NCBI GenBank assembly: GCA_021234155.1
Contig: JAJEKV010000017.1
Coordinates: forward strand, 1,727,467-1,791,466
From: Isoetes taiwanensis
Lineage: Eukaryota > Streptophyta > Lycopodiopsida > Isoetales > Isoetaceae
Direction of reading: 5' to 3'
DNA length: 64,000 nt
The position numbers were made by a program, and so were the translations under genes. A model generated the notes under the pieces. It was not told the origin of the DNA. It saw only the letters and a program-made list of their open reading frames with translations, and ran no database searches. Shown here piece after piece: positions 5,790-34,570 of this stretch (the first letter of the stretch is position 1; every line of letters starts with the position of its first letter).

Positions 5790-6260
5790 AGGCTCCCCTG
5801 AACTTTTTGGGGTCCGCCTCTTGGGGTATGGCCTCTACCCCCTTGAGGCCTCCATGCAAAGTCCCTGGACGCTCGTTGGTGGGAAAGGGTGCCACCAACA
5901 AATGTGCAAATGGGACGGGGCTGTGTTTAAGGTGTTCCCCGAGGAGGACTGCTTGGCGACGAAACCCAGGGCTTGGGGAGGGCGGGCTCAAGCGTATCGG
6001 CTCCATGGAGGAAATTGCAGATTTCGGCTCCTCGAACTTTTTGGGTCCGGCCTCTCTTGGGGTATGGCCTCTACCCCTCCCTTTGAGGCCTCCACGCAAA
6101 GTCCCGGACTCCTGGACTCGACTTAGTTGGGAAGGCTGCCCGCCCAACAACAAAATGACTGGGGCGGGTGTGTTGGCACCTTGTTCTTTGCCGGCTTCCG
6201 CCTGTGACCTTTGCACCGTGTCCTTTGTGTGAGGGAGGATCTTGACGCCGTAAGATTTAA
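5790..6260. repeat. Lengthened satellite unit with internal ~237-bp duplication (first)
   Basis: The block ending in the 'ggtatggcctctaccc' motif occurs twice here, at about 5790 and 6027, giving the 1311-bp unit. The junction reads TGTTTAAGGTGTT, followed by a shortened copy of the gcttggggaggcggg...ggctcc segment. The same junction type recurs at 8330-8345, so both long units probably descend from one duplication event. Confidence 0.8.
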
Positions 6261-8189: not shown

Positions 8190-8560
8190 CCTCGGGGAAC
8201 TTTTTGGGTCCGGTCTCTTGGGGTATGGCCTCTACCCTCCTCCCTTGAGGCCTCCATGCAAAGTCCCACTGGTGCTCGAATTGGGGGAAAGGTGCCGCCC
8301 AACAACAAAGGCAGCCGGGACTGGCCAGTGTTTAGGGTGTTTTCAGGATTCAAATCCGGATAGGCGAACCCGAGCTTGGGGGAGGCGGGCGACTGTCTGG
8401 CTCCATGGAGGAGCGTGGCGTGTCGGGCTCCCCGGGAACTTTTTTTTGGTCCATCTCTTGGGGTATGGCCTCTACCCTCCCTTGAGGCCTCCACGCAAAG
8501 TCCCTGGACTCGTTCGACTGGGAAGGGTGCCGCCCAACAACAGGGCAGGACGGGGCGGGT
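8190..8560. repeat. Lengthened satellite unit with internal ~237-bp duplication (second)
   Basis: The 'aactttttgggtcc...ggtatggcc' block occurs at about 8191 and again at about 8428, which lengthens this unit to 1285 bp. The junction TGTTTAGGGTGTT matches that of the first long unit. Long, normal, long succession at 5489-9172 hints at a higher-order repeat. Confidence 0.8.
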
Positions 8561-15030: not shown

Positions 15031-15545
15031 AGTTTGGAACATAAATAAGGAACATAAATAAGGAAACTGCTGAGCATGAGAAACACCATAATCATAAGCG
15101 ACTCAAAAGGATTCTTTGCTATATAAAACCAAACCAAAGGGGAAAACTCAGGAGTATAATAAAAACAGTGATGAGCATAATGCAGGCACTTACTAATTAC
15201 GAAACAAAAGAAGCATTTGAACCAATGCAGGCACTTACTAATTACGAAAGAAAAGAAGCATTTGAACCATAGTAACAAATGTATAAAGAAATAATCAACA
15301 AGATCAAACAATAAATGATGAGTTCTAACCAGCAGAAAGGCACACGCACAAATCAACAATAGAAATACCAGAAGAAAACACAAGGAACAACATCGTAAAT
15401 TGAAAAAGACAGTTCGAACTAGAATGATCAACTCATGCTTCCAAACCCAGAGCATTGGATAAAAGGAATGTTAGATGGATGGATGGATGGATGGATGGAT
15501 GGATAGAGTTAATTGTATTATCTTCTGAAAGGGTCTCGGCTAACA
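15031..15545. repeat. Dispersed repeat family A, copy 1, with (GGAT)n tract
   Basis: This block is repeated at 34,243-34,620 and 40,332-40,690. Shared landmarks include AACTGCTGAGCATGA, ATGCAGGCACTTACTAATTA and CAACTCATGCTTCCAAACCC. Copy 1 has an internal tandem duplication of the GCAGGCACTTACTAATTACG segment and a (GGAT)n microsatellite at 15,474-15,506. A long hydrophobic minus-strand frame covering it is not conserved in the other copies. Confidence 0.8.
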
Positions 15546-15951: not shown

Positions 15952-15956
15952 TCCAA
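15952..15956. repeat. Target-site duplication TCCAA (left)
   Basis: TCCAA immediately precedes the 5' LTR and is repeated at 33,356-33,360 directly after the 3' LTR. A 5-bp duplication is the usual size for Ty3/gypsy integrases. Confidence 0.95.
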
Positions 15957-16203
15957 TGTGACGTTCCAGCACAGTATACGGTCCAAGGACGTATACTGTA
16001 CTACATCATCACGCTTGCACGCCATCCCGATTGACGTGTACGCCGACGTGTAGTTAAGCAAGTAGCACCCTAGGGAGCAATTTGCAAGTGTGTGCACATT
16101 TATTCATGTGTACACTTTAGCCCACTTAATTAATATAGGCAAGTGGGCCACACCCATTTATCCCACATGCTCAAGGGTTGATAGAAACCCTAGCCCTAAC
16201 TTA
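15957..16203 (+). repeat. 5' LTR, upstream part
   Basis: This matches the first ~245 bp of the 3' LTR (31,807 onward). It starts TGTGACGTTCCAGC and has the 9-bp inverted repeat CAGTATACG...CGTATACTG near its start. It is cut off after CTAACTTA by the Helitron. It holds the upstream U3 region, now 4.3 kb away from the LTR TATA box. Confidence 0.95.
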
Positions 16204-17879
16204 TCTTATATTATAATGTTATTGTGTAAGTGTTGGACCCAGCCCTAATTTGGGCGGCCCAGATTTGATCTTCGATTTGACGGTCGAGGTCAAGCCCTCG
16301 ATCGGGGGTTTTGCTTCCTCCCCAATTCATTCCAATCCAGCAGCTTCGTCACGAATAGGAAGGACAATTTATCTCCAGATCGATGAAGGTGATTTATTCC
16401 CCAGAGCTAAGCGGCCTGCTCTTCAAGCTCACACTCAAAGATGATTTAGTCCGGAATAAGCGATTTGGCGTTTGACTATAGAAGTAGAGAAATGATCGAA
16501 AAAGTGGATCTGCACATCGGCATCCCGCAAACAACTTGGATCTTCAGGCTTCATTCTTTTTTAGCATTATGGCCCGGTCGATTACCCTAAAACTTTCTTT
16601 TCGTTTATGATTACACGCAATTCATGCGAGTCTGTATGCGACTTCAAGGATGAACTCCTTGCTAGGTCATCCATCTCATATACATGATTCTGGGTTAAAT
16701 AGCCATGTACAAGGTCTGCAAGGCCTACACTCTTAGCGAGTTAGTAGCATCAAAAGCGGGACACCATTTGCTCTTGATTTTTATTATTTGTGGTATCTTG
16801 AAATGGTGCGAGGAGATGGCTGTGGCATTTTAGAAATATTTTTGTGCTTTTGGTGCTTTTGTTCATCATAAGTTCTTGAGCCAATTCTTCAAGACATGCA
16901 AGGTATGGTTTCTTAGTCCCTTTGTTGTAATTTTGTTTTGAACTTCTCGGTTACTTTAGAAGATGGTCTGTGGTCCTAAGAATAATTCTTTGGAGCGGTG
17001 ACACCGATATGGCATCTGCCATTGCAAAGAAAGAGCTCGAGTGTGGCAAGTAAGACCAAATACAATTTTTAAAGTATCTACTTTTTCTGTATTCCTTCAT
17101 GGCCTACCTAAACGAGCTTCGTCATTGCATTAGGCGGTTTCAAGAATGTGAATCTGAGGCCTTTTAAAGAGAGGGTGCATTGCTAAAAACTGTGTTTCCT
17201 TCTTGCACATGAATTTACAAGGTTAGCATTAAACTGGATTCTATTTTGCAATGGAGCTTCATGCGGTCGCGAGATCTGGATTATTGCGAAGGCGTCCTAC
17301 ATTGCAAAGTTTAAGGTGACCCAGATTTAACAATGTGTTGAGACGACCAAGATTGATCACGAAAAGAAGGCCCCAACCCTAGCTTTCCGCATCGGATATG
17401 GCTCCCTCAAGCCTCTTATGGGTTAGGCCCAAAATTACATAATAAACTTCTCCATGATAATATCTAAACACTTCTTTGCTTTGGAAGCATAAGGCTAATA
17501 TATTGTTGAAACATCCATGAAAGGAGCTTTGGCAGCTAGCATTTAAAAGCTATCCCCGTATAATTAATGCCCGCAAATTGTTGTAAAAGTGTCATTGTGG
17601 AGTTAAAGAATGTACCATTTGCCCGGACATTGGTATCATTATTTCTATCTGCAATATACCCCTCCACATCAGCGACAATTAGCTACTACATTCCTCCCTT
17701 AAAGCAACTACATTCTTTTCTGCATTGCTCGCCCTTTACTCTCCAGCTTTGTTTCTTCTTGGTTTCTCATATTTAACTTTTTCCTTCTCAATACTTATGC
17801 TCTTATTTGTTGTTTGCGGGATATAGGCACAATGGATGACAACACATGGACAGAGCCTTGCTATACAATACACACAAAC

Positions 17880-18430
17880 ACTACACATAACACTAACTCA
17901 TCATTTCACATTTCCGGTTGCCTTAGTTGGTTCTTACATTTGTTTGCCGCTCCTCCTTTTGCTTGCAGTCTCCTATCATGCTTCACCATAGTAATGGCGG
18001 CATTTATGGAGACAAAGGATCGAGTGGCCACCAGCCATCATGTGCTTGAAACAATCCCATAGCAATTCTTCCAATGAGTGTTTTGGATTGATTTGCAATA
18101 TTCCCGCTTTGGACTTGCGGATCTCTTCACATTTGCGGGGCTGCTAGATTTCTACTATGGTGAATCTCCTCGAGAGCCTACACAACATTCCCACTTCGTC
18201 ATGGTTGTGTCTAATTCTCTAGGCTATTTTTAAGCGGTGCCATTGGTTACTTTGTCAATGGAATAATCAAGCATGGTTCCAATCCGGAATGATTGCCAAG
18301 CAACTTCTTGGCTCCTTGCGGTTATAGGCTTTATCAATTTCGTGGTGGCGGATTATACAATCAATTATTCTGCCTCCAAGGATCCAAGAAGACTCTTCAA
18401 GCTTTTGTCTAGATACCAACTCCAATATTA
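17880..18430 (+). pseudogene. Possible captured membrane-protein gene fragment in the Helitron
   Basis: Short hydrophobic peptides occur in shifting plus-strand frames, for example FPVALVGSYICLPLLLLLA near 17,920 and AVIGFINFVVADYTINYSA near 18,320. They would fit transmembrane segments of a captured gene broken by stops and frameshifts. The family was not recognised. Random AT-rich frames can also look like this. Confidence 0.25.
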
Positions 18431-18725
18431 ATGTATGTTTAAAACTCACTTTCTTTTCCTTTTTAAAGGTCCGCCAAGTAGATCGAGCTATGAAATCATG
18501 TGGAACGGGGCCATTAAATGAAGGCATCGCTACGTTCTTTATCTTTTCTATGTTTTGGAAGTGTTCTTTTAGTGCTTTTGTTATGTTACGGGGAGGATCC
18601 CTTGACGACGTTTTAAACCGAGGTCTCACCGAAACCTCTATATCTAAGGCACAACTTACAACTTGCCTAACAGAATGAAAAAGAAATTCAAGATAACTAC
18701 TTGGAGCATGCTCGATAATATGCAC
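18267..18725 (-). other. Unrecognised 152-codon open frame inside the Helitron
   Basis: An uninterrupted minus-strand frame whose product has no motif I recognise. It may be chance or a captured fragment. Confidence 0.2.
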
Positions 18726-19070
18726 TATATATGTGCAAATAAATATAGAGGTACTTGAAGGTACTCACTTGAATATGAACATGGATTAAAGAAATGGAGA
18801 TTCCAACTTGAATATGAATCAAAGAATAAGGATCCCTTTGAACATGGATTAAAGAAATAGGGACTTACATGTTTGTTTAATTTATGTTTGTTTTGAGGTG
18901 CAAAATATTGGGATAAGGCACCACTTGATCACAAATTTGTTTAAATTGCTTTATGTGTGATTTTGTGATTGTGTATTTTGTAATTGTGCTACTTTGTGTA
19001 ACTTATTGAAGATGAGTTGCTTTATAGACAACAAACTACTTAGTATGTACTATTATTTGTCATGTATTAG

Positions 19071-19180
19071 GGAATGGAAAGGGGGAGCCTCTTTCCAGTT
19101 TGGAAGGGGGGCCCCCCGACCGGCGGCAGCCGGGAGGGGGTCCCTTCCAAACCGGAAAGGGGCGACCCCCTTTCATTCCC
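19071..19180. repeat. ~110-bp GC-rich imperfect palindrome in the Helitron
   Basis: The arms CCTCTTTCCAGTTTGGAAGG (from 19,088) and CCTTCCAAACCGGAAAGGGG (to 19,162) are near-complementary around a GC-rich centre (GACCGGCGGCAGCC). Pairing extends outward through AATGGAAAGGGGGAGCC and GGCGACCCCCTTTCATT. A stable cruciform or hairpin is expected. Confidence 0.8.
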
Positions 19181-19182
19181 CA

Positions 19183-19760
19183 ACAAAATGGAAGTTGGGG
19201 AAACCAATTTTGACGACGTTTTTTTCAATGGAGCTGGGCTATGGCACAGGGGTTCGCCCTCAGGTAACCAAGCAACGAAAAGATTGAAGCAGATATGAGC
19301 TCCAGCTCTGAAACCACCAGGATCTTTTCGCTTTGCTTTTCAAAGCTTCTGATCTGCTTTCTAATCCCCCTTTCTGCTCTGCAGAGCCCCATTCTGCTCT
19401 TCTTTTCAAAGCTTTGAAGGTTTTTTCAGGAAGGGGAGCGCTACCAAGAGCTCTGTTTTTTCAGAAAGGGGAGCCCTGTGCTTTTCAAAACTCTCTGCTC
19501 TGTTTTATATCTGATAAGGGAGCTGCCCGATCGCATTGTATAGTTGCAGGATCGCAGTTATGTAGTTGCAAGATCGCGGTTACAGGAAAAAACAGGGGAA
19601 GATGAACAACCGGGAACAGGGGAGGGCGAACCTGTAAAACAGGTCAAATTTGCTGTTGCCGGAATGTTTGGACCCAACTTCCATTCCGTCGTGGAAAGAT
19701 GCCAGGTGGCATCATGAGGTTGATCCTCAGACAAAATAGTGACCCCAACTTCCATTTTGT
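19183..19760. mobile_element. Possible MITE/foldback with 18-bp inverted ends, inside the Helitron
   Basis: ACAAAATGGAAGTTGGGG at 19,183-19,200 is the exact reverse complement of CCCCAACTTCCATTTTGT at 19,743-19,760, bounding 578 bp. No clear target duplication is visible, so this could also be an inverted repeat not due to transposition. Confidence 0.5.
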
Positions 19761-20478
19761 GAATCTTCAAGTATCTAGATATAACATTCCATCACTATTA
19801 CAAAACATGGGATAACATTCCAAGTCATAAATGGTGACTTGATTTTATCATTAACATATTTCCAACTTCGCCTAGGCAAACAATGCTCGAATTGAACCAT
19901 AATATCCAAATGTAAGGCAACTTGGTTCTATATTAAGTGGTTTCCAACTTTTTCTAGGTAAACAAAGCTAGAAAAAATTGGACCATAACATCCAAATGTA
20001 AGAGGACATTACACTTTGCTATAGTAATATCATAATAGTAGCCGCACTATAACATTGACATTATTAACGTTCAACTTCATAACAATCCCACAGGATTCAC
20101 ATGTTATATTTCGACATTAGTGTTTCACCACAACATTTTGATACGATCTCTATGCATACTGATGATAATTCCGGTTAATCATTTACAATGTCCCACCATA
20201 TGCCAAGTCTCATAAAGAGTGATACACTCTTACTATAGCCTCACCCCAAAACCTGCACAGATTAACACTTTACTCACACTCAGGCTTGCTATGAACAAGG
20301 ATTATTTTGTTCTACTCAAAGCTCTCAAAGATAATGATGCAACATTATCTAACGTGAAGGAGCTAAGTTTCTTTTAAATGTTAAATCTTTGGATATTTTT
20401 GTTAAAATAAAAAGTTATAAAATTTGAATTATTACTGCAGACTTTTTGTGGTCAAAACATTTACACAATCCCAACTTA

Positions 20479-20507
20479 TGCCCAGCAAGGCTGGGCACCC
20501 TTACTAG
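20479..20507 (+). terminator. Helitron 3' hairpin and CTAG terminus
   Basis: TGCCCAGC, loop AAG, then GCTGGGCA form an 8-bp perfect stem, followed by CCCTTA and the terminal CTAG. Spacing and sequence match the Helitron 3' transposition terminator. Confidence 0.93.
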
Positions 20508-21778
20508 TAGTCTATATAAGGCATCTGAAACCCTAACTTTCCATTTTCGTCCACAGCCTTCTAGAGCTCCATTTTGCTTGCTCCAAGAGCCAATCTCGAC
20601 TTCCGAAGATTGTCTGAGCAGCCTAGCTCATCAGCTTCCCTTTCTAGCTTCATCTTCAAGCAGTTCTGCAGCATGGACGCATTCAGAGCAAGAGGAGCAA
20701 GCCAGGGATCAGGTATTTTGCCAATTCAATAGTCTAATCCGCCTCCCAGGCATAGTGTAAGTAGGTTTAACCTATTGAATTACCCATAGCAGCCATCTAG
20801 ACCTCTAGATATCGAGCCATAACTAAAGAACCTAACTCTGTGAATTAGATTAAATCTTATTCTTTAGTTCTTCTATGATATGTATGTGATGATGATCTTT
20901 GTGGAATCACTGTATTGGGAAGGGGGGTAGAGGCCTTAAAAGCCTAGTAGTTTGATGCTCCTAGCTAGCCCTCTTTAATGCACTATTAAATTCGGCCTAC
21001 AAGCGCCACACCTGGTTGTGGGTGGAGGGGCCAGACTGGCTTACAAGGAGGTTCATGTCCTGACTCATGATCACGTCCCTCTGGTAGTAAAGCCTATCGG
21101 GGATTATAGTGTACTAGACCTAATGCTCTGCCACCGTGTGCGGGCTTTGCATGGGTTCGACACTCTTGGGGTGGTGTACACCTTCTAGCCCTCTAGTCAC
21201 CTTGAGTCAGTATGCCAACCTCTGGTGGGAGTAATCCCTACCTGCCCCATCGGAACTGGGAAGATGCAACCCAGGAGTAGCCCCTTTGGCTACGCATCCG
21301 ACGGGCTACAGTCAGGTCCCAAGACCTTTCAACCTACTCTGCAAAGTGTGCACAGGAGGCGCAGATGGAGTGGACTACCCTAAGCCATGCTCTTATGCCA
21401 GCCAAATCCATTTGCCATGAATTCTGTCCGCAATGACTTCTGGAGGCCCAAGCCGTCAGTCATGCCCCTTGAGTCTGAGCCTTGGGTAGGATCTCCATAT
21501 GTGATGTACTGATCTTTGTCTATGCAGATATATGGTGAGCCATCCTTCGTGATGGTTATGTGATGTTGATGTATTGGTACTTACACATATGTTTACGCTT
21601 CCGCAGCTAGGTAGGCCCTAAGGGAGACGGGGTAAAATGACCCCTTCATTCTTCCCACTGGAACTTGTCAAGGTTGCAGTGATACGTGGAGGGCCTTGTA
21701 TCAGCATGGAGCTGGTATGGGGGATGAACTCCTGTTTGTATATGGTGAGTGCACCGTATACGAGTAGGGGACGCCACA
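20508..21778 (+). repeat. 5' LTR, downstream part (core promoter, R, U5)
   Basis: This resumes the LTR at TAGTCTATATAAGG, equivalent to 32,053 in the 3' LTR, and ends GGGGACGCCACA (the 3' LTR ends GGGGACGTCACA). Total 5' LTR length is 1,518 bp against 1,549 bp for the 3' LTR. Small indels cluster around 21,180-21,240 and 21,430-21,460. Confidence 0.95.
20513..20521 (+). promoter_or_regulatory. LTR TATA box (5' copy)
   Basis: TATATAAGG stands five bases downstream of the Helitron's last base. The same box is intact in the 3' LTR. Helitron insertion has therefore separated the core promoter from upstream U3 sequence. Confidence 0.7.
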
Positions 21779-21779
21779 G

Positions 21780-21791
21780 TGGTATCAGAGC
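21780..21791 (+). other. Primer-binding site, initiator tRNA-Met
   Basis: TGGTATCAGAGC lies one base after the LTR end. It is the standard complement of the 3' end of plant initiator tRNA-Met, as used by most plant Ty3/gypsy elements. Confidence 0.95.
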
Positions 21792-21986
21792 AATGTTCTT
21801 GGAGACCAAGAGCAAAGCACTGGCCATGCTCCCAGTAGCACTAACTTAGTAGAATTCTCAAACCTTGAAAAAGTGGGAAATTTTTTTTTTGTCATTTTTT
21901 GTAGTTTGTGCTAAGCTAATAACTGTTAGAAGAATTGAAAACCAAACTAAAAAGTTGAACTAAATTTTGACCAAGTGTGGAAATTG

Positions 21987-22050
21987 CTCATGGTATGCGC
22001 CAGAGCATCAACCTAAATTTTAGATTGAGCCCCAGGCGCACACCATGAGT
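21987..22050 (+). promoter_or_regulatory. 64-bp inverted-repeat element, copy 1 (upstream of the H3-like gene)
   Basis: The outer arms CTCATGGT..GCGC and GCGCACACCATGAG are inverted, with an inner TAAATTTTAGATT core. Related copies are at 22,199, 23,850 and 24,053. They occur only in the two leaders in front of the extra genes, which suggests a regulatory or RNA-structural role. Confidence 0.7.
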
Positions 22051-22198
22051 AACTGGCTATAATCATCTTGAAACTTGAAGAATTCGAACAAGATAATATG
22101 CTAGATCGAGTTTTAAGGTAAAGTTTAGTTAGATTTGTATATCACACCCCTAGGAATATGCCTAGAAATCATATAATTTAGTCCAAAATACAAAAATG

Positions 22199-22262
22199 CT
22201 CATGGTATGCGCCAGAGCCTTGATCTAAATATTAGATCAGCCCTCTAGTGCACACCATGCGT
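22199..22262 (+). promoter_or_regulatory. 64-bp inverted-repeat element, copy 2 (upstream of the H3-like gene)
   Basis: CTCATGGTATGCGCCAGAGC...GTGCACACCATGCGT with an inner palindrome TGATCTAAATATTAGATCA. It begins 212 bp after copy 1 and about 167 bp before the TATA box. Confidence 0.7.
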
Positions 22263-22365
22263 AATTGTACTTAGAAAACTCTAAAGAAAGTACATGTTTT
22301 AAGTTAATATGTGCCTTGACACATGAAAATGAGCAACTTAGAATTTGACCTAAAATTTGCCAAAC

Positions 22366-22374
22366 TATAAATAG
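22366..22374 (+). promoter_or_regulatory. Internal TATA box for the H3-like gene
   Basis: TATAAATAG, 110 bp before the ATG at 22,476. The matching TATAAATAG at 24,311 stands 121 bp before the next gene's ATG, so both extra genes appear to have their own core promoter. This is inferred from sequence and position. Confidence 0.6.
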
Positions 22375-22475
22375 ACCCAAACCCCTCTCATTTGTAGACT
22401 TTCTGTCTAGAAGTTAGCTCCCGCATTTCGAGGCGATTTTTGGGCGCCAGAGCTTCGATTGACGTGAAGTAAAGC

Positions 22476-23703
22476 ATGGCGGGCACCAAACAAATAGCTC
22501 GGAACTATCGATCCAGTGAACAGCCTAGCGCCTAAGATAAGAGGCGGATACAACAGCTCCTTCGAGAGCAGCTTCTCGCTCGAGGAGACCAACTTCCATC
22601 AGCTGAGGAGAGCGCTTCGGACGAGCTCCAGGAGGAGGGATCCGAGCAAGGATCACTAGAAGAACTGGTTGACCTCATCAACCAGGAGTTAGATGGAGAA
22701 GAAGAAGTGGAATCCGAAGGCTCGATGGACGAGGAGACTCAAAGAGAGTTCGATCAGATTGAGCAGCAGATACAAGAACAAGAGAGGGTAGAGCAAGAGC
22801 AGGCCGCCCAGGCACCAGATGAACAGAAGGAGCCCACTCCCGAGCCGACCCTGGAAGAAGAACTCGAGACCTGGATCAAAATGCAGGAGGCGAAGTTACA
22901 GCGCAAGAAAAGGAGAAAGGCCGAGAAGAAAAGAAAGCGAGAAGAACAGGAGGCGGAGGAGAAGAAGAAACTCAAGGGAAAGGGCAAGGAGGAGCCCAAG
23001 AGGAAGATGAAGACGACACCCACGGTCAAGCTCGTCATCAACGAACGGCAAGCAGATCAGCCCCCATCCTCTGATGACGAAGATGATGAAGACTACAATC
23101 CTCATCATGAGGTAGGGAGCTCCTCCAAACCAATAGACGAGGATCGGACGGACAGGGATCGGCAGATACAGACACCCCCACCCTACCCCACGTGGGAGAA
23201 GGAGAAGGATCCAAAGAAGCCTCCCCGACCTATGTGGTAGACCATCGCAGGTTCTACCAGAAGAAATTAAAGGCCTACCAGGAATACATGAAGAAGTGGG
23301 AGGCCTACAACTCCTACTATCAGGCAAACAAGGTCACTTACATCGAGGGAGGACGGCCATCGAAGAAGAAAACGCTCAAGCCACCTCCAGAGAAGACGGT
23401 ACCTCCCAAGAAGCCAATAGCGAGGAAGCCCGGATCAAGACTGTCACAAGCAGTTCGGGAAATCCGGCATTTTCAGAGAAGTTACGGCCTTCTCATCCCG
23501 CGTGCACCATTCGCCAGGCTCGTCAAGGAAGTCGTACAGGAGTTCGACTCGAGCATGAGAGTCACAGGTGAAATGCTGCTAGCCTAGCAGAGTAGAAGTT
23601 GATGCAACATTTTGAAGACTCAAGGGCGTGCACTATACACGCCAAAAGAGTAACGTTGATGACCAAGGATATGCACTTGGCAAGCTCCATTAAAGGGGAA
23701 TGA
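22476..23703 (+). CDS. Retrotransposon-borne histone H3-family (CENH3-like) protein, interrupted
   Basis: The frame starts [10 protein letters not shown], like the H3 tail that carries K4. Next comes a ~230-residue charged region: acidic coiled-coil-prone, then Lys/Arg-rich, then DDEDDEDY. A basic segment [11 protein letters not shown] leads into a histone fold. The αN/α1 region reads [17 protein letters not shown] and APFARLVKE; α2/L2/α3 reads [17 protein letters not shown] then TKDMHLA. REIRHFQ, LLIP-APF and RVTLM-KD are closer to CENH3 than to canonical H3, while loop 1 is H3-like in length. Breaks: in-frame TAA at 22,533-22,535, a frame change near 23,200-23,240, a stop at 23,585 and another frame change before 23,599. 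Some breaks may be consensus errors. In the nucleus it would be expected to form nucleosomes or engage histone chaperones (inference). Confidence 0.85.
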
Positions 23704-23717
23704 TAAATGTTGTAAAT

Positions 23718-23736
23718 AATAAATTTTATAAATAAA
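23718..23736 (+). terminator. Candidate poly(A) signals of the H3-like gene
   Basis: AATAAA occurs at 23,718-23,723 and again at 23,731-23,736, 15-30 bp after the terminal TGA at 23,701. This fits a separate transcript ending here. AT-rich context makes chance occurrence possible. Confidence 0.45.
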
Positions 23737-23849
23737 AAGTTGTTTTGGGTAAGTTATAAGTACATAAATGTTATTAATTAGGTTGAATTAGCAATAATTG
23801 CCTTTTGTTTTAGTAAATTGGACATCATAGGGCCAAAAAGTGAGAAGTT

Positions 23850-23914
23850 ACTCACGGTATGCACCAGGACCTCGACCTAAATTTTAGGCCAGCCTTCTAG
23901 CGCACATCGTGAGT
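23850..23914 (+). promoter_or_regulatory. 64-bp inverted-repeat element, copy 3 (upstream of the second extra gene)
   Basis: ACTCACGGTATGCACCAGG...GCGCACATCGTGAGT, core GACCTAAATTTTAGGCC. It has the same architecture as the copies at 21,987 and 22,199. Confidence 0.7.
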
Positions 23915-24052
23915 ATTTCACACCAAAACGTGTCCCAGACATCTCCAAACTGGCCAAGTAAGGGTTCAATCCTGCATATCTCGATGAGACCATCATGTTT
24001 TGACCCTTAGTTCATCCCGTTTAGATAAGTTTTGACCAAATAGGGCCAATTT

Positions 24053-24117
24053 ACTCACGGTATACGCCAGGACCTCGACCTAAATTTTAGGTCAGCCTTC
24101 TAGCGCACACCGTGAGT
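24053..24117 (+). promoter_or_regulatory. 64-bp inverted-repeat element, copy 4 (upstream of the second extra gene)
   Basis: ACTCACGGTATACGCCAGG...GCGCACACCGTGAGT has near-perfect outer arms and a perfect inner palindrome GACCTAAATTTTAGGTC. It is the best preserved copy and begins about 203 bp after copy 3. Confidence 0.75.
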
Positions 24118-24310
24118 ACTTTCAACATTATCTCTTTCATCCACCTCCAATTGACCTCAAGTTTGTTGCAATAGGTTCATTAGATAGTCTTATTCATGCT
24201 TAGAACTTCAAACTAGCCTTCAAATCCTCATTTTGACCTCAAAATAGGTGAGATTTGCCAAACCAAAAAATTTTCTAAGTTTTCCAAAAATTAGGGTTTT
24301 CCCCTTTTCC

Positions 24311-24319
24311 TATAAATAG
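24311..24319 (+). promoter_or_regulatory. Internal TATA box for the second extra gene
   Basis: TATAAATAG. The leader after it (TTTGCTCCCAGGTTTTAGGCGATTTT) resembles the leader of the H3-like gene (TTAGCTCCCGCATTTCGAGGCGATTTTT), so the two promoter-leader modules look duplicated from one ancestor. Confidence 0.6.
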
Positions 24320-24431
24320 GGCCCCCATATCTCACTTAGCATCTTACAGGTTTGCTCCCAGGTTTTAGGCGATTTTCCAGCTCCTTTAGGCGCTTCAAGA
24401 GCTATTTGTTAGTCCAATTCACTCAAGATCA

Positions 24432-25967
24432 ATGGCAACCGGCAGATTTCGTGGCGATGGTACTAGCCAATGCTTATGTAGCCGAGGGCATATCAATGCC
24501 ATCTTCGAAGTTTTTCAGAAGGAGATAGACATCCAAGCCACCTTGCATGCAACCCCATCCTACATGGAAGTCATGACTGAGTTCCAAGCTAGGGTAGGAC
24601 CATCCTTAGTACAGCTTCCCCCTTGTACAGGATATTTTGTTCCCAAGCAGTCCCTCCAAGCAGCCTTGAGTGATGTCCCCAACATTGCCAAGTACCTGAA
24701 CAATAAGGTTGCTAGATTGCCAGACTACATAGTCATGACAGTAAATAGGGCGAAGTATTTCTCCTATACCGTTGCCTTAGCCATCTTCCTCTCTCACCAT
24801 GCCCTGATCCCAATTGGGGAACCATCTATTCTGGCCTTGGATGTGGACCCCTTAGCCTCTTTAACAGAAGGTCAGTTCCTCTTGCAGTATCAAGCAGAGC
24901 AAGAGGGAAGAGCCAAGATCTAAGAGCTCGACTCGGGCAGCGAAGACTACGCCGAGTTCGACCCCACCAGGAGCAAAGACAAGCGAGGCAGGAGATCCAG
25001 TCCATTCGACCGAGAACCGACCCACGGGATCGCCTCCCCCACTCGGGCTAGGTATCACAAGCCTAGCTCCCATCATCATCAACGGCCAAGAGTATTTGCT
25101 CCTAAGTGACATCCAGAACCTCCCCGGAATGCGAGCGAGCCAGTACAGGGCGCGAACGAGTTCTTTGCACCTCTGGCGGCAACAACGGATCCGATGACTT
25201 CATCGATCGGGAGGCTTTGACTTCCCAATCCATTTAAGGGAAGCCGACACCTACACCCGGGAGTCAACTTCACATATCCGTATATAGCGGCGATTCGGCA
25301 AATGATGACAAAAGGGACCCGCCTTCAGAAGAAGAATTCTACGCCATCCAAGAACGGATGGGGATCCGTGGCAAGACCACAAATATTTTGATGCCAAGTT
25401 CTTCGACATCAGCCCCCATAGGTGTCCAGAGAAGAGGCGAGATCGACCTTACCAGAATCGCCTCAACAATAAGAGACCACAGACCCCACGAAATTCAATG
25501 CGATGAATATCGCGGAAGACATAGAGCCGGTGCCCGAGCCGACGAAGAATCAACAACGAGGAGCCGAGACAGGTCGCTAAGGTACTACCTTCCTCTGCTA
25601 TTGGACGGGAGAATAGCGGTCATCCACCGCAAGTTCAGTCCAAGGGGCGAAGAAGGAGTATTCATGCTCATCGCACTCTCAGGATTTGGTAGGCACGGTC
25701 GGCTGATCTCATCAGTTGATCATGTCATCCTAGTCAAGAGAACAGTGGCACTGGATATTTTCGACTTCGCGGTACCCTACCGACGGCAAGGAAGATTAGC
25801 AGTGACCACGGCCTATACTTCCGACCGCAGGGTAGAAGACTTGGTAACAGCCTGCAGGGCGGGACACCAATGAACATTCTCAGAAACTTGGGACGCTCGG
25901 TAGGAACGGCCCAGGTTAAGAAGTTCCTCAAGGATAACCCATCCTTCCGGCGATTCAAGAATAGTTA
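24432..25967 (+). CDS. Second extra retrotransposon protein, unrecognised, interrupted
   Basis: The first segment (24,432-24,923, 163 codons) starts MATGRFRGDG and is a mixed α/β-like soluble sequence. After an in-frame TAA at 24,921 the same frame continues with an acidic/basic stretch (ELDSGSEDYAEFDPTRSKD) to about 25,107. Beyond that, coding-like peptides appear in changing frames, including one open frame at 25,358-25,873 and a C-terminal NILRNLGRSVGTAQVKKFLK ending at 25,967. I do not recognise a family; it lacks zinc-knuckle, protease or polymerase motifs. Its position and promoter module parallel the H3-like gene, so the two may act together. A duplicated gag-like function is an alternative. 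Confidence 0.5.
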
Positions 25968-26002
25968 GACTTTTTGATCCCGGAAGCATTGTAATGAAGC
26001 TA

Positions 26003-26041
26003 CTATATATATAAATACAGCAAACACATATAATGCAATAA
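26003..26041 (+). promoter_or_regulatory. TATA-like run and AATAAA between the second extra gene and gag
   Basis: TATATATATAAATACAG at 26,003-26,019 and AATAAA at 26,036-26,041 lie in the ~100-bp gap between the stop at 25,967 and the first gag-side ATG at 26,067. They could be a poly(A) region for the upstream unit or a core promoter for gag-pol; the sequence does not decide. Confidence 0.35.
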
Positions 26042-26066
26042 AACAAACAAAGCTAACCGTAAAGCT

Positions 26067-28117
26067 ATGACCTACTTGTGTATGCGGCTAGAGGTCCAGG
26101 AACAGCTGAACAAGACCGGCGAGTCCATAGAGATGAAGAGACGCCGGCCAGACAGCACCTATCAAGGAACCTGTACGAGGAATTCGGTCCCATGACTCCC
26201 TAAGAGGAGATGTCGCAGATGAGATCTGATCTTCAAGAGATAAAGGCCTTATTAGCAGCACAAGCAGTAGTTGGGCCAGACCACAACGTCCAGTTGCCAC
26301 AAGCACCACCTCCAAAGACAGGAAAGGATAAGAAGAAGAGCAAGAGAAAGAGGTCCCCTAGCACGGAATCCTCCGACACAAGCTCGGATTCGGACTCTGA
26401 TTCCGAGGAAGAGGCAGAACAGGTGCAGGACCGTAGAGACGGCAGACTCAGGGACACAAGGACCTCAGACTACCAGAAGAAAGTAGACTCTGCACTGAGC
26501 AATATGTGGAAGGCAAGAAAGCTCGAACAGTTCTTAGATGACAGTCGGTCAGACGTGGAGGCAGAGGCCTGGCTGGATGAGATGAGGGAATATGGGAATG
26601 CATACGGAATGAAGGACAAAGACAAAGGCAGGGTAGCTACAACCAACCTTAAAGGTGCAGCCATGATATGGTGGAAGGGCTATGCCAAGGCCCATGGGTT
26701 GAGCAGGGATAGCTGCAGGTTCAAGAAATTTTCAAAGGCATTCAAGCGCCACTATGTGCCAAGGGAGCACAAATGCCACATGATGCAGCAATTCTATCGG
26801 CTACAGCAGGGCAACAAGTCCGTGTAGAAATACACGGAAGAGTTCATGAAACTAAGGCTTTATGTGCCGAAGCTGAGTGAACGCCATGCACTGGAAGGGT
26901 ACATCGAGGGATTAAACGATGAGATAAGGAAGCTGATAAGAGCAATCAACCCTCGAACAGTATCAGAAGCGGAATCGAAAAGCAGTCAGCCTACAAGGAT
27001 CCGACCCTCGAAACAATGGGCAAAACAGCAGTACTATCAGGATAAGGGCAAAGCATCAGGGAGTTATAGCCCTAGAGCAGCTAGTCCAAGACCAGCAAAA
27101 GCTCCATACAGTGGCAATTACGGGAAGCAGCAGGAAAAGAAACAGGTATCCTTCAAGGATAAGCCGCAGCAGGAAGGGTCAAATTACTCGAAAGTGGTGC
27201 GATCCTTTTTACAAGCAATGCCTAAGGAGAAGAGGCAGGAGTGCATTGAGAAACAGCTCTGTTTCAGGTGCTTCCAACCAGGCCACAGAACAGCAAACTG
27301 CCCCTTTGTCATGAATGCGGCATTAGCAGAGTTGGGTGGATGGGAGACTCCCTCTGACGACGACGGTGGGGAAGCACGCGACTTCATTCAGGGTGAGTGT
27401 CATATCTTTGTAGCCATAGATTCAGACCAAGTAAAAAATCAGTATCAGGTAATCTCCACAGTAGGGAAGGCCAAGGCCAAGTCTTTTATAGTCCTGATAG
27501 ATACGGGGAGCACCCACAACTTCGCGTCTCCAAGAATGGTTGAGATGTTGAAGCTCAAGCCGTTGAAGTCAAAGCCGAGACCCGTGGTGTTAGCAAGTGG
27601 GGCAATGAGACACACGGCAGGCAAGAGGATAAATTTCGACATCGATTTGCCAGGGATCAACATCCAAATGGGAGCAGAAGTAATGAACATCGGCAAATAT
27701 GATTTGATAATAGGAATGGAGTATCTTGGACCAGCAGGAGCCATCATTGATTGTGGAAAGCGGAAGGTGACCTTCACGGCGCCCAATGGCAAAATCATAG
27801 AAATTGCAGGTAAAGAAGTTGTTTCCATCATACAGTATATGTCTAGTAAGCGGCTGCTCAAGTGCATAAAGAGCGAGCATGTAGCCTATGTCTTCAAGCT
27901 CCAGATCGAAGAGCCCGAGTCAGAAGAAAGCAAGGAAGATAAGGTGCTCAGCAAATTACCAAAACAGATAGCTAAGTTGGTAAAGGAGTTCCACGATCTC
28001 TTCCCAGACGAGATCAAGCAGATTCCTCCTTACAGGGGAGTCGAGTGCGGGATAGCACTCGAATCAGGTACGAAGTCGACGAGCAAAGCACCGTACAGGA
28101 TGACGATGCAGAGCTAG
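26067..28117 (+). CDS. Gag and protease region of the chromovirus (interrupted)
   Basis: The main frame runs from 26,210, with a short upstream piece from 26,067 in another frame. It holds a Lys/Ser-rich N-terminus, the gag capsid core with [10 protein letters not shown], an in-frame TAG at 26,825-26,827, then a basic linker. A CCHC zinc knuckle [14 protein letters not shown] lies at 27,260-27,301, and the retropepsin active site DTGSTHNF at 27,500-27,523. A second protease landmark, DLIIGMEYL, follows. The start of reverse transcriptase ([12 protein letters not shown]) is reached before the frame breaks at 28,117. Gag packages the RNA; the aspartic protease cleaves the polyprotein. Confidence 0.93.
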
Positions 28118-28900
28118 CCGAGTTGAAGAAGCAATTGCAGGAGTTGCTTGACCTAGGGTTCATTAGACCTAGCGTCTCACCATTTGGGGCACCCATCCTT
28201 TTTGTGAAGAAGAAGGATGGCAGCTTGAGGATGTGCATAGATTACAGACAGCTAAACAAGCACGCCATCAAGAATAAGTATGCACTCTCTAGATTGGACG
28301 ACCTGATGGATCAGCTCCAAGGCGCGAAGGTTTTCTCCAAAATAGACCCGAGGTCAGGGTACCATCAGATCAGGATTAATTAAGGAAGAAGACGTCCACA
28401 AAACAACATTCAGGACCAGGTATGGGCATTACGAGTTCATCTTAATGTCGTTTGGCTTGTCAAATGCCCCAGCAACGTTCAACGTTCATGAGGCTTATGA
28501 ACGACATCTTCGGGGAGTTCTTGGATACTTTTGTCGTAGTATTCTTTGATGATATTCTGGTGTACAGCAAATCCCTGGAAGAACACGTACAACACCTAAG
28601 GAAAGTGCTCGAGAAACTAAGAAGGCACCAGTTGTACGCTAAGTTGTCGAAGTGCCACTTCGCAACGGAGAGGGTAGAATACCTGGGGCACGTGATCTCA
28701 GCAGAGGGGATTTCGACGGATCCTGCCAAGATTGAAGCAGTCATACATTGGCCAGCGCCGAAGAACATCCACGAGGTCAGAAGCTTTCTCGGCCTAGCAG
28801 GGTATTATAGGAAGTTCGTGAAGAACTTTGCAAAAATAGCAGCCCCGCTAACGGATTTGACGAGGGCGGAAAAATTAAAGAATTGGGCGACCGCGTAAGA
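28045..28900 (+). CDS. Reverse transcriptase domain (frameshifted)
   Basis: Two overlapping-frame pieces cover the palm: MCIDYRQLN and [15 protein letters not shown] in 28,045-28,383, then after a frameshift [13 protein letters not shown] and the catalytic FFDDILVYS at about 28,541-28,567. The piece ends with [10 protein letters not shown] and the connection motif [22 protein letters not shown]. The catalytic Asp pair is intact. Breaks at about 28,117, 28,381 and 28,485 prevent a continuous product. Domain order and motifs are those of Ty3/gypsy. Confidence 0.95.
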
Positions 28901-29330
28901 AAGCCCAAGCGATTCGAGATGTTGAAGGAAGCTTTAACAACCGCCCCATCCTAACCCCCGCCGGACCCGTGAGAAGGACAAACTTGTGGCGGCGGATGTA
29001 AGTAAAATTGCCACAGTGCAGATTGATGGAAGAGCGGTAGTGGCTTATGACTCTCGGAAGATGAACGGCGCCAAAACGCCGCTACCCGACTCATGACCGT
29101 TGCTTTGCTTGCGGTTGTCGAGCACCGAGAATTTGGAGACACTACCGTTGGGAAGGAAGTTCCACTGACCGCGGATCATCGAGCCTCCAATACGTGTTCA
29201 CGCAACCACATCTCAACCCGAGGCAAACGAAGGTGGATGGAGTTCCTCAAGAATCACGATTTTGATATAGTTTATGTCGGGAAGCTCGATGTGGTAGCGG
29301 ATGCGCTTTTAAGGCATCCTCGACAACAAA
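28900..29330 (+). CDS. RNase H domain (heavily frameshifted)
   Basis: Peptides in several frames match the gypsy RNase H: AVVAYDSRKMN near 29,025-29,060, LTADHRAS near 29,165, and RRWMEFLKNHDFDIVYV then VVADAL at 29,230-29,315. At least three frame changes occur in about 400 bp, more than in the gag region. Dense breaks here may be decay or consensus error. Confidence 0.8.
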
Positions 29331-29449
29331 AGTCCATTTGCAATGCAATCTCGACGCCACCGGCTGACTTGAAAAAGAAGATCGAAGAAACCTTGCCCGA
29401 TGCACGCGAACTTCAAGGAAGTGTGGGCGAAGCTTGTGCAAGGAGGCAA

Positions 29450-30240
29450 GAACAGATAAGGAGAGGGAAACCTTCAAGAATTTTAAGAAGGAAGGTAACC
29501 TTTTGTACCATAAGAATAAGTTGTGTGTGCCCGATTCATCGAGTGAGGAAGTTGATTCTCCACGACACCCACAATCCAATAGGCGGCCACGCAGATTTAT
29601 GAAGATATATTTCAAAGTCGCAAGAAGCTTATTATTGGCCGTGGATGAAGAAACGGATAGCTCGCTACATCAAAGAGTGTCACCGTTTGGTCGCCAGACG
29701 GCGGCGCAGCGACTTCAATTCCGTGAGCATTGGAACCATTGGCGGTGCGAACGCTAAGTGGGAAGTCATCGCGATGGACTTCATAACAGGGCTCCGAGAG
29801 GACAAAGAAGAGGAAAAGATGCCCCGATGGTTGTGATCGACAAGGGTCGAAGATGGCACACGCTTGTGCCTTGCGGGACCAAACCGCCCTTGGATACGTG
29901 GCCTCTCTTTCACGTAAGGAAATCTTCAGCTCCATGGTATGCCGAGAGATCATCTCCGACGACCCGAAGTTCATGAGTGCCTTTTGGCGATCTTTTGGCG
30001 GCGATCCGCATTTAAGCCGCCCATGAGCGGCCTATCATCCTAAGACGGATGGGCGAACGGACCAACAGAATCTTGGAAGATATGCTAAGAAACTATGTCC
30101 GGAACAAGCGGTAAGTGGGAAGATTATATTCACTTGGTTGAGTTCGCATAATAGCACCAAGCAGAATCATCCCGCATGTCGCCGCTCATGATCAACTACG
30201 GCTACCAATGTCTAACTCCGCACACTTTGGCACAATCCCG
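29450..30240 (+). CDS. Integrase zinc-binding and catalytic core (frameshifted)
   Basis: The HHCC-type region is visible as LILHDTHNPIGGHADL at about 29,550-29,600, with YIKECH following near 29,670. The catalytic core shows WEVIAMDFITGL (first Asp) near 29,760 and, in other frames, PKFMSAFW and the HPKTDG-type motif near 30,030-30,060. Multiple stops and frame changes make it non-functional as read. Confidence 0.85.
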
Positions 30241-30379
30241 TGTCAAAGGTAGAGGTTTCACGAAGAAATGTTGGCCGACATGCGGCCCGGGTAGAAGAGG
30301 CCCGGGATATTTTCTTGCAGCAAGGAGTCGACAAAAGAGCGTGCCGGGCGAAAACACCGGACGGTCGAGAGAGTTCCGT

Positions 30380-30853
30380 GTTGGCGACAACGTCCCGCTC
30401 AAGATCAAAGTGAAGCAGGAAAAGCTCCGCATCGGAAATTGTAAGAAGCTTGCTCCAAGATGGGCTGGCCCCTTCAAAATAGCCAAGAGAGTAGGTAACC
30501 AATCCTACAAGTTAGAGCTACCAGCACACCTGAAAATTCATAAAGTCTTCCACGTAAGTTTCCTGAAGAAGCATACTCCAAACCCAGAAGAAGTCTTGGA
30601 TACGCCAACGTTGTTGGAAATGACAGAAGAGCAGCTAGAGATAGTCCCAGACTTGATCCTTGATAAGACGATCAAGAAGATAAGGAGATCAGAATTTCTC
30701 CAATATTTGGTCAAGTGGAAACACTTGCAAGTGGAAGACGCGACATGGGTACTTAAGAAGGACCTGATAAAGCAGTACCCGCAATTCATGGAGCAATGGG
30801 ACGACAAGGTCATCTCTGAAGTAATCGGCTCAGACATGTCAATTTATGTTTAG
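30380..30853 (+). CDS. Integrase C-terminal domain plus chromodomain
   Basis: One open frame (from 30,176) gives the integrase C-terminal GPFKIAKRVGNQSYKLELP and the chromovirus-typical KIHKVFHVSFLKKH. A chromodomain follows at about 30,629-30,790: EIVPDLILDKTIKK, YLVKWKHL, EDATWV. The VKWK and ATW tryptophans of the methyl-lysine cage region are present. Chromodomains of chromoviruses bind modified histone tails and bias integration. This module is uninterrupted, with stop TAG at 30,851. Confidence 0.95.
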   Translation, partial: VGDNVPLKIKVKQEKLRIGNCKKLAPRWAGPFKIAKRVGNQSYKLELPAHLKIHKVFHVSFLKKHTPNPEEVLDTPTLLEMTEEQLEIVPDLILDKTIKKIRRSEFLQYLVKWKHLQVEDATWVLKKDLIKQYPQFMEQWDDKVISEVIGSDMSIYV

Positions 30854-31793
30854 ATTAATTGATGTGTAGTTAAGATTAATCTACGCATGCAGCCTATACT
30901 AGGTATGGGTTGCATGCGTAATTGCCGATGATGGGACCACTACGGTGATCTCTAGGACGTGATGTAATGTCATTGTAGGCATGACCGCAGTTTTGCTTGG
31001 ATTAGTTAGGCAAATGGTGAACATGAGTAATGTTGCACCGTAATGTGTCCATAGGGGAAGGACATGCGATTAAAGGTAGAAGTGAACATGGGCGAGGATG
31101 AGATCATCAGGGATGTTCTCTAGCTTAAACCCCTTGGGCCATGATGCACTGGGGTATGCATGATCAGGGAGGTCATGCATAAGGTAGCATCCAATCATGG
31201 GCTATGATAGGATCGTCTTAAATGACCCTTACGCTTAAACCCTCATGGGCCATGATCGAGTGCGTGGTATAGGCATTATAGAGGCTGTCTCCACGGCCAC
31301 GATGGAAGAAGCATCCTCTTCCTACGTCGGGAGATTAGTCATGCATTCATTTAGTTAATTAGATGGGTGGTTACCTTATAACCATAATTTTATTAATAAT
31401 TAAAATGGTACTAACGTAGTATCGACCTGCAGGCCAATAGAGCGCTCCGGAGGGCAAGGAGGTCGAGCTACGAAGACTTGTAACACAATTTTGTTAGAAT
31501 GTGTTGCAAGGAATGAAGAGTACCTCGAAGGATAATTGTACATGAAATTGTTAAAACTTGATAAATTTAAACGTTGTATTAAGTGAGGCTAGTAAATACC
31601 TTGCTTTAATGAAGTTATGAATTGATAAGTTATTGGGATAATGTAATGTCGTAGTAATGGCTTTAAAAATATTACCTTAACATAATTTTAACAATTGTGT
31701 AAGTATAATAATAAGTTGTATGCATCAAGTTGGTTGCAGGAAAAGAAGATCCCAAGGTGGGAAGACCCACGATGCTGCGGACAGCATCATTTC
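30854..31793 (+). other. Retrotransposon 3' untranslated region
   Basis: About 940 bp without a gene. It contains a diverged tandem motif (GCTTAAACCC..TGGGCCATGAT, near 31,122 and 31,231) and, next to the PPT, a perfect 7-bp hairpin GATGCTG-CGGA-CAGCATC at 31,771-31,788. Confidence 0.6.
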
Positions 31794-31806
31794 AAGGTGG
31801 GGAGAA
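31794..31806 (+). other. Polypurine tract
   Basis: AAGGTGGGGAGAA directly abuts the 3' LTR, the usual place for plus-strand priming. A similar AAGGTGGGAAG lies 40 bp upstream. Confidence 0.9.
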
Positions 31807-33355
31807 TGTGACGTTCCAGCACAGTATACGGTCCAAGGACATATACTGTACTGCATCGTCACGCATGCACGCCATCCCGATTGACGTGTACACCGACGTG
31901 TAGCTAAGCAAGTAGCACCCTAGGGGGCAACTTGCAAGTGTGTGCACATTTATTCATGTGTACACTTTAGCCCACTTAATTAATATAGGCAAGTGGACCA
32001 CACCCATTTATCCCACATGCTCAAGGGTTGATAGAAACCCTAGCCCTAACTTATAGTCTATATAAGGCATCTGAAACCCTAACTTTCCATTTTCGTCCAC
32101 AGCCTTCTAGAGCTCCGTTTTGCTTGCTCCAAGAGCCAATCTCGACTCCAAAAGTCTGTCTGAGCAGCCTAGCTCATCAGCTTCCTTTTCTAGCTTCATC
32201 TTCAAGCAGTTCTGCAGCATGGACGCATTCAGAGCAGAAAGAGCAAGCCAGAGATCAGGTATTTTGCCAATTCAATAGTCTAATCCGCCTCCCAGGCATA
32301 GTGTAAGTAGGTTTAGCCTATTGAATTACCCATAGCAGCCATCTAGATCTCTAGATATCGAGCCATAACTAAAGAACCTAACTCTGTGATTTAGATTAAA
32401 TCTTATTCTTTAGTTCTTCTATGATATGTATGTGATGATGATCTCTGTGGAATCACTGTATTGGGAAGGGGGGTAGAGGCCTTAAAAGCCTAGCAGTTTG
32501 ATGCTCCTAGCTAGCCCTCTTTAATGCACTATTAAATTCGGCCTGTGTACAAGAGCCACACCTGGTTGTGGGTGGAGGGGCCAGACTAGCTTACAAGGAG
32601 GTTCATGTCCCGACTCATGATCACGTCCCTCTGGTAGTAAAGCCTATCGAGGATTATAGTGTACTAGACCTAATGCTCTGCCACCGCGTGCGGGCTTTGC
32701 ATGGGTTCGACACTCTTGGGGTGGTGTACACCTTCCATGGAGTTCGGGCTTGAGTACATGCAAAGGGCCCTCTAGTGACCTTGAGTCAAAGATGCCAACC
32801 TCCTCGGTGGGAGCAATCCCACCGCCCCATCGGAATCGGGAGATGCAACCCAAGAGTAGCCCCTTTGGCTACGCATCCGGCGGACTACAGTCAGGTCCCA
32901 AGACCTTTGAACCTACTCTGCAAAGTGTGCACAGGAGGGGCGGATGGAGTGGACTACCCTAAGCCATGCTCTTATGCCAGCCAAATCCATTTGCCATGAA
33001 TTCTCGGCCCCACGACGTCCGAGGCCCAAGCCGTCGATCCATGCCCTTGAGTCTGAGCCTTGGGTAGGATCTCCATATGTGATGTACTGGTCTTTGTCTA
33101 TGCAGATATGTGGTGAGCCATCCTTCGTGATGGTTATGTGATGTTGATGTATTGGTACTTACACGTATGTTTACGCTTCCGCAGCTAGGTAGGCCCTGAG
33201 GGAGACAGGGTAAAATGACCCCTTCATTCTTCCCACTGGAACTCGTCAAGGTTGCAGTGACACGTGGAGGGCCTTGTATCAGCATGGAGCTGGTATGGGG
33301 GATGAAATCCTGTTTGTATACGTGAGTGCACCGTATAAGAGTAGGGGACGTCACA
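31807..33355 (+). repeat. 3' LTR (intact, 1,549 bp)
   Basis: It starts TGTGACGTTCCAGC and ends GGGGACGTCACA, so the last 7 bp mirror the first 7. The TATA box is at about 32,058 (GTCTATATAAGG). It is the uninterrupted reference for the Helitron insertion site and carries about 30 bp, near 32,735-32,765, that the 5' LTR lacks. Confidence 0.96.
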
Positions 33356-33360
33356 TCCAA
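33356..33360. repeat. Target-site duplication TCCAA (right)
   Basis: Matches 15,952-15,956. Confidence 0.95.
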
Positions 33361-34242
33361 CCACCAAAAAATGAGGCCTTACCACTTGGCACAAGGGCTA
33401 ATCACTCAATCAATATGAGAACCTTCTACACAAATGCCCACAACTTCATGAACGAGCCCATATGATTGAATGCAAATGGAATATGTAACATTAATATTAA
33501 TGAATAGAGATGACTTAGCAGAGATTCAAAAAGCAAAGGCAATTACAGGTAGAAGTTATTCAAGTGGGAAATATAAAAATTTAACCCTACGAAAACACAA
33601 GAAAATAAAAATCATATTCAGCAATAATACAACTCCGTTACAAACAGAAAGGCAAATGGAACAAGACCTAAAGGCATGTACTATATGAGGCAATCTTGCT
33701 CATTCTTGTCATCGCTACATACAAGAACATGTGAATCAAGATACTGGAAGTGGAAAGCAATCAGAGAAAGAGATACTAAGAGGTATTAGAGATAATGAAA
33801 CATGCTCAAGACCTTCACGCCTAGCACAAGGGCCAACAATACCTGGCACAAATTCAAACACACACTCTACACCAAAGTATCCGAGTATCATAACCAATCA
33901 CCTGAAAAAAGGTGTCCATGCTTATTTGGCCTTGTCGAGTTCACACTCATCTTATGAAGAAAGCAATGCCCATGAACATGGAAGAAAGAAAACATTAGCT
34001 CCCAAAAAATCCATAAAGGCACAATTCTCTCTCGCTAATCTAAATGAGAAAAGAGAAAAGTATAAAGAAGGCAATTTAGTAGACATTCTATTGAGCAACG
34101 ATGCAAACATAATCATGCAAGCATCACATAACCCTTTCCAAAGAAGGCATACCAAATGGCATGAGGGCCTACCATCTGACATGAGGCCAACCACCTAGCA
34201 CGAGGGCCGATCACATGGCACCTGAGCCAATGGAAATCAAAC
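33361..34242. other. Old repeat-like DNA hosting the retrotransposon, no supported gene
   Basis: A loose motif of the form ACCACYTGGCACRAGGGC recurs near 33,379, 33,817 and 34,150-34,220. A 155-codon open frame (33,731-34,198) runs across it but shows no domain and carries the same repeat motif, so it is not called. Confidence 0.5.
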
Positions 34243-34508
34243 TAAGGAACATAAATAAGGAAACTGCTGAGCATGAAAATGCCATAATAACCATTCAAAC
34301 CATAGTAACAAATGTATAAAGAAATAATCAACAAGATCAAACAATAAATGATGAGTTTTGACTAGCAGAAAGGCACAAGCACAAATCAACAATAGAAACA
34401 CCATAAGAAAACACAAGGATCAACAACGTAAATTGAAAAAGACAGTTCAAACTAGAATGATCAACTCATGCTTCCAAACCCAGAGCATTGGATAAAAGGA
34501 ATGTTGAC

Positions 34509-34570
<62 letters not shown>

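Follow-up and report, generated by a model that had tools for sequence, protein, structure and literature searches.

A family of LTR retrotransposons in the genome of Isoetes taiwanensis almost certainly maintains a gene for a variant of histone H3. The copy analysed here lies in a stretch of 64,000 nucleotides (contig JAJEKV010000017.1, positions 1,727,467 to 1,791,466; in the following, the window), for which a preliminary description had proposed that a retrotransposon bears an H3-family gene. Matches to the histone fold and relatives found across the genome confirm this proposal and establish the gene as a trait of the family.

The element and its broken H3 gene

According to a self-BLAST and an inspection of the ends, the segment 15957-33355 of the window is a Ty3/gypsy LTR retrotransposon, which is flanked by a target-site duplication TCCAA (15952..15956 on the left, 33356..33360 on the right, unstranded). 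All other features given below are on the forward strand. The 5' LTR (TGTGACG...GCCACA) spans 15957..21778, the 3' LTR 31807..33355; their K2P distance is 0.037 for 250 bp and 0.047 for 1275 bp. The primer-binding site (PBS) TGGTATCAGAGC at 21780..21791 is presumably of the iMet type, as in plant chromoviruses. Pfam identified gag (26210..26827; Retrotrans_gag, 6.6e-9), the end of gag with a weak zinc knuckle and the aspartic protease (26846..28117; RVP_2, 1.5e-9), the reverse transcriptase (RT) in two frames (28045..28898; RVT_1, 1.5e-7 and 2.7e-16), and the C-terminal part of the integrase with a chromodomain (30176..30853; SH3_Tf2-1, 1.7e-20; Chromo, 3.2e-9). The element, with its LTRs, target duplication and PBS, is classified as chromovirus-type on the basis of the domains that Pfam found, namely gag, aspartic protease, RT, and an integrase end with chromodomain. 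Plant chromoviruses, i.e. Ty3/gypsy elements with a chromodomain, have in common with it the LTRs, PBS, gag, protease, RT, and the chromodomain after the integrase; upstream of gag, the window element has in addition two further frames and four hairpins. We know of no H3 in plant chromoviruses. The distance from the PBS (21780) to gag (26210) is about 4.4 kb and accommodates two frames, that of H3 and ORF2. The first long frame 3' of the PBS is that of H3; ORF2 and then gag-pol come after it.

Another insertion is nested within the 5' LTR at about 16205-20497 and splits it (self-BLAST). The element is flanked on both sides by a repeat some 255 bp long with 91% identity (15253-15507, 34286-34542), which also occurs at 40464-40692. 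Positions 1-10025 consist of diverged, GC-rich repeats (GC content 0.58 over 1-8000), whose mutual identity is mostly 70-80%, and adjacent direct duplicates of about 3.5 kb with 96% identity are located at 45019-52000. A reading of K9 in the element's own H3 by the integrase chromodomain was set aside: by eye, the chromodomain has only one aromatic cage residue out of three (with HP1 as the model), and one sub-branch has V instead of K at position 9.

The H3-like tail, the charged linker and the C-terminal histone fold, which had been placed between PBS and gag, were all located. The tail start occupies 22476..22532 and is followed by an in-frame stop at 22533; the charged insert between tail and fold is open at 22536..23237 in the same frame as the tail and resembles no Pfam family above the cut-off. 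The end of the insert, helix N, helix 1, loop 1 and the start of helix 2 are encoded by 23192..23584, whereas the end of helix 2, loop 2, helix 3, and the C-terminus IKGE follow at 23596..23700 (stop at 23701-23703). Profile searches, as had been suggested, recovered the histone fold in these pieces: the frame 23192-23584 (131 residues), which ends at a stop, matched H3 chains in the PDB (E 5e-9) and Pfam Histone (1.2e-9), and a separate piece of 32 residues (23599-23694) matched H3 in the PDB (E 1.2e-6). Comparison with a protein database gave nothing, neither for the insert (1974 candidates) nor for the fold piece of the window (8 candidates). Stops and two or more frame changes interrupt the window copy; one change lies between the insert (22536-23237) and 23192-23584, another before the piece from 23596. 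Judged by its sequence, it is a degenerate copy of a genuine H3 gene of this retrotransposon family.

Intact relatives across the genome

Copies of the window type, which possess the long charged insert, are termed the first branch; they were searched for in 1,658,258,908 bases on 1110 contigs. The fold piece of the window gave 7549 first-look candidates, and all 150 that were scored passed an E of 0.001; at 17 of these 150 places, the match is held by an open frame of at least 390 residues without internal stop. A degenerate pattern for LIPRAPFAR, which varies at synonymous positions only, had 474 exact matches genome-wide and its reversed control had 0; about the first 100 matches listed do vary at the synonymous positions. 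First-branch copies are spread over very many contigs, and many of them are broken.

For comparison, 28 loci were used (the 8 best matches and 20 picked mainly for long frames), which represent 27 distinct copies including that of the window. Of the 27 copies, most of which were picked for long frames, nine (L018 among them) read through as one uninterrupted frame of 402-429 residues, which comprises the H3 tail start, a charged insert of 301-328 residues and a complete H3 fold. In histone H3, tail and fold are joined by about 30 residues; a joint of this length is not present in the nine frames, and the preliminary description was right in stating that a long insert splits the two. That nine other copies read the same segments in one frame also bears out its view that no chance host read-through is involved. 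Seven of the nine begin with MARTKQTAR(K/V). Of the 27 copies (counting that of the window), 24 have a recognizable H3-like tail start: 14 read MARTKQTAR exactly and 5 lack the initiator M; position 9 is occupied by K in 12, by V in 7 and by another amino acid in 5.

The surroundings of the gene were inspected in 20 copies (9.9 kb each). The exact PBS is found upstream of the H3 frame in 15 of them and ORF2 downstream in 15; in the same orientation downstream, 14 copies have gag and/or protease and 10 have RT. The other six copies yielded none of these three genes on the same strand; here the inspected sequence extends to some 6.5 kb beyond the beginning of the fold match. Two further RT matches are on the opposite strand (L032) and upstream (L033), respectively. 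Thus, other family members carry the frame, profiles detect the fold, and the gene is no host pseudogene confined to a single copy, which are the three points on which the proposal could have failed.

For eight uninterrupted frames, dN/dS was 0.344 in the tail (12 codons), 0.240 and 0.158 in the insert, and 0.088 in the fold; note that these frames were picked for being open and that dS of the fold is near saturation (6 of 28 pairs without dS). The fold is the most constrained part of the protein. In the ten copies which hold all three regions, dN/dS was 0.129 for the fold, 0.098 for gag and 0.252 for an RT piece. Using all loci available per region, the values were 0.154 for the fold (21 loci, which must include L050 of the second branch described below), 0.197 for ORF2 (14), 0.106 for gag (11), and 0.216 (9) and 0.206 (8) for RT pieces. 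The pooled dS of the fold exceeds 1 in the first branch, indicating a deep divergence.

A second branch close to canonical H3

With a canonical H3 as query, 15 host H3 genes were retrieved at 96-98% identity, followed by 135 places at 71-86%; these places constitute the second branch. Open frames of at least 400 residues are present at 51 of the 135; at two of the 51, a stop interrupts the match. The proteins of eight fetched examples, picked for long frames, have 409-421 residues and consist of a start MA(I/N/T)(T/I)K(S/R), a conserved N-terminal domain, a linker, and the H3 fold; dN/dS was 0.076 for the N-terminal domain, 0.277 for the linker and 0.035 for the fold. In the fold, 83-86 of 97 residues are identical to host H3.3, and pS at synonymous sites, 0.88-0.95, approaches saturation. 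Conservation of the tail is not strict, since R2, Q5 and K9 are absent; only MAxTK is retained, in seven of the eight. A protein database search with the second branch gave 5749 matches among 8000 scored; the 120 listed span just 23-37% of the protein.

One second-branch copy has upstream an LTR end that is 80% identical over 154 bp to the LTR of the window, followed by the PBS GTGGTATCAGAGC, and an ORF2-like frame downstream of its H3. At 45 of the 135 second-branch H3 places, an ORF2 place lies 737-837 nt downstream on the same strand, with about 0.01 expected; none was found on the opposite strand within 20 kb of the 135 places. Pieces of first-branch gag and RT had no match within 4 kb downstream of the second-branch copy with the LTR end. 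The inserts of the two branches fail to align and their folds alone can be aligned. An hhalign comparison of ORF2 gave E 2.7e-4 with a probability of 42% for one piece, and E 0.017 with 3% for the other, which is only suggestive of homology between the ORF2 sequences of the two branches.

Hairpins and ORF2

Four strong hairpins of about 68 nt, all with covariation, bracket the H3 frame. Two are located upstream, at 21985..22052 (z -8.1 for 21985-22055) and 22196..22264 (z -7.0 for 22192-22262), and two downstream, at 23848..23915 (z -4.3 for 23846-23916) and 24052..24119 (z -7.7 for 24048-24120). By BLAST, two to four of them occur in 18 of 20 other copies, and all four in 11; no match was found in second-branch stretches. 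In an alignment of 23 examples, drawn from the window and six loci, both sides changed with the pairing retained at 7 of the 19 consensus pairs, and among 65 hairpin examples 95.6% of the cells pair over 7 pairs, compared with at most 83.0% in 300 shuffles; because the sequences are related, these counts are not independent events. A search of Rfam over 20400-33400 gave none at E 0.1. The hairpins may process or regulate the H3 message.

The second accessory protein, ORF2, is encoded in the region 24432-25958, and its counterpart adjoins the H3 frame of the second branch. In the window, a first piece lies at 24432..24923 and a later piece of this broken copy at 25358..25873; the same segments are found in other copies, where open frames reach 470-490 residues. 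No Pfam family scored above the cut-off, a scan of IMG/VR confirmed no relative, and a structure model was useless (pLDDT 35).

Fold and affinity to H3 and CENH3

A PDB profile search with 19 first-branch copies found H3.3 at E 2e-30, and two full-length frames match Pfam Histone at 1.3e-24 and 1.7e-23. All eight second-branch examples and 18-19 of the 19 first-branch copies retain C110, H113, K115, R116, K122, D123, L126, I130, R83, and R49; the first eight of these residues we take to belong to the region contacting H3 and H4. From these kept contact positions, pairing with H4 and the place of H3 in the nucleosome are predicted for the element protein. In the first branch, residues 63-65 and 79-84 are mostly unlike H3, R83 excepted, and a standard nucleosome is for this reason not assured. 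A model of the fold alone was poor (pLDDT 60.6), its helices being ordered as in H3. Foldseek reported 84 matches; the 50 listed are all nucleosome or histone entries with 40-52% identity and a TM of at most 0.27 by query length. As modelled, the structure adds little beyond the sequence.

The preliminary description had favoured an affinity to CENH3, which some traits support and others do not. The first branch has P63, A65, E87, and L89 as well as the LLIPxAPF stretch in common with three plant CENH3s, which were entered as provisional, unverified sequences. A tree joins it to these provisional rows with a split of 96, the branches being long, and a smaller tree without human CENP-A separates the first branch plus CENH3 from H3 plus the second branch (split 99.9/100, with the same provisional rows). 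In contrast, an alignment with the provisional rows shows that loop L1 has the length found in H3 and that the C-terminus is H3-like without a CENH3-type end; the tail ARTKQTAR is also of H3 type. The 60 best of 179 PDB profile matches of the first branch are canonical-type H3, and with host H3 it shares a mean identity of 0.51, at least as high as that with most of the provisional CENH3s (0.45, 0.47, and 0.53). A provisional Arabidopsis CENH3 sequence gave nothing in the PDB at a strict cut-off of 1e-40. In the phylogeny that had been called for, the first branch joins the provisional CENH3 rows on long branches, whereas the second branch groups with H3 and not with CENH3.

Known systems

In the open-access literature, searched by titles and beginnings of abstracts, no retrotransposon encoding H3 was found. 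The word 'histone' is absent from the accessible parts of a review from 2026 on how plant elements capture genes (PMC13317346) and of two Isoetes genome papers (PMC8566536, PMC10541799). Two known systems come closest, namely H3-bearing hAT elements of fungi and histones of viruses. According to PMC6710886, hAT DNA transposons of Dothideomycetes carry an H3-like sequence; there are 784 copies in Pseudocercospora fijiensis, mostly truncated and RIP-damaged, and putatively functional ones in Pyrenophora tritici-repentis. Like the Isoetes element, these are mobile elements which carry and multiply an H3 coding sequence. However, the fungal element is a DNA transposon with an ordinary H3 of 136 residues, whereas that of Isoetes is an LTR retrotransposon with a split H3 of 400-430 residues and low dN/dS. 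Single viral histones, namely a bracovirus H4, a xenomavirus H3, and an H3 of NCLDV, are covered by a review (PMC9145170). They resemble the element H3 as core-histone relatives encoded by an invader, and the available text of the review states that they are thought to enter host nucleosomes. Their carriers are DNA viruses, in contrast to the element; 'retrotransposon' and 'retrovirus' have 0 occurrences in that text.

Possible role of the element H3

The intact element gene encodes an H3 variant of about 400-430 residues, made up of the nine or ten residues with which H3 begins, a charged insert of some 300 residues, and a full fold. If expressed, this protein may enter the nucleus, pair with host H4, and be built into nucleosomes on the element's DNA or nearby. 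These nucleosomes would show readers A-R-T-K4 but would be devoid of the H3 segment with K27 and K36, and in one sub-branch also of K9. They could carry active marks and not the usual repressive ones, which would help to keep the element expressed. Taken as a whole, this explanation, a genuine H3 variant in nucleosomes that aids expression, is slightly favoured by us. Its parts differ: it is fairly probable that the element H3 enters nucleosomes, and rather doubtful that it counters silencing. A shade more tentative is the wider view that the lineage builds chromatin of its own, with H3 variants, CENH3-like in one branch and near canonical in the other, on which an active mark at K4 would be possible and the main silencing marks would not, under selection about as strong as that on gag.

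The same tail and fold could also act outside nucleosomes, namely as a soluble decoy that binds host H3 readers, modifiers or chaperones and thereby blunts silencing. A tail motif at a free N-terminus on a long charged tether (301-328 residues in nine frames) would suit this purpose, and in the first branch residues 86-90, presumably the stretch read by chaperones, are mostly unlike host H3. We nevertheless regard a decoy as unlikely, since the fold including its histone-pairing positions is the most constrained part, which is more than a tail decoy needs. That the protein marks or seeks centromeric chromatin, favouring insertion or retention of the element there, is less probable again: the four residues common to plant CENH3 and the 99.9/100 split point in this direction, but just three provisional CENH3 rows and long branches are involved, loop L1 and the C-terminus do not conform, the second branch is plainly H3-like, and copies are distributed over very many contigs.

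Nearly as improbable as a centromeric role, and ranked just below it, is a role of the protein in packing or condensing the cDNA or RNA of the element within particles. The basic and acidic tracts of the protein, the placement of the frame before gag and a constraint close to that of gag would be compatible with packing; however, generic packing does not require the kept H3 tail start and H3-H3 contact positions. The idea of a functionless passenger, either a host H3 pseudogene or a chance read-through, could draw on the broken state of the window copy and of many further copies. It is rejected as highly improbable by hundreds of copies, uninterrupted frames, the same place in the element, and low dN/dS over a deep divergence.

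Mobile elements are silenced via histone-tail marks. On the preferred reading, that of an H3 variant within nucleosomes, an element with its own H3, in which the tail start and K4 are kept and the sites of repressive marks are dropped, would offer a direct test of whether silencing can be escaped by replacing the marked protein; there are hints that the element may influence host chromatin as well. The family also provides naturally occurring H3 variants whose tail and fold are separated by 300 inserted residues. Finally, a possibly CENH3-like H3 present in hundreds of copies would bear on the evolution of lycophyte centromeres and genomes.
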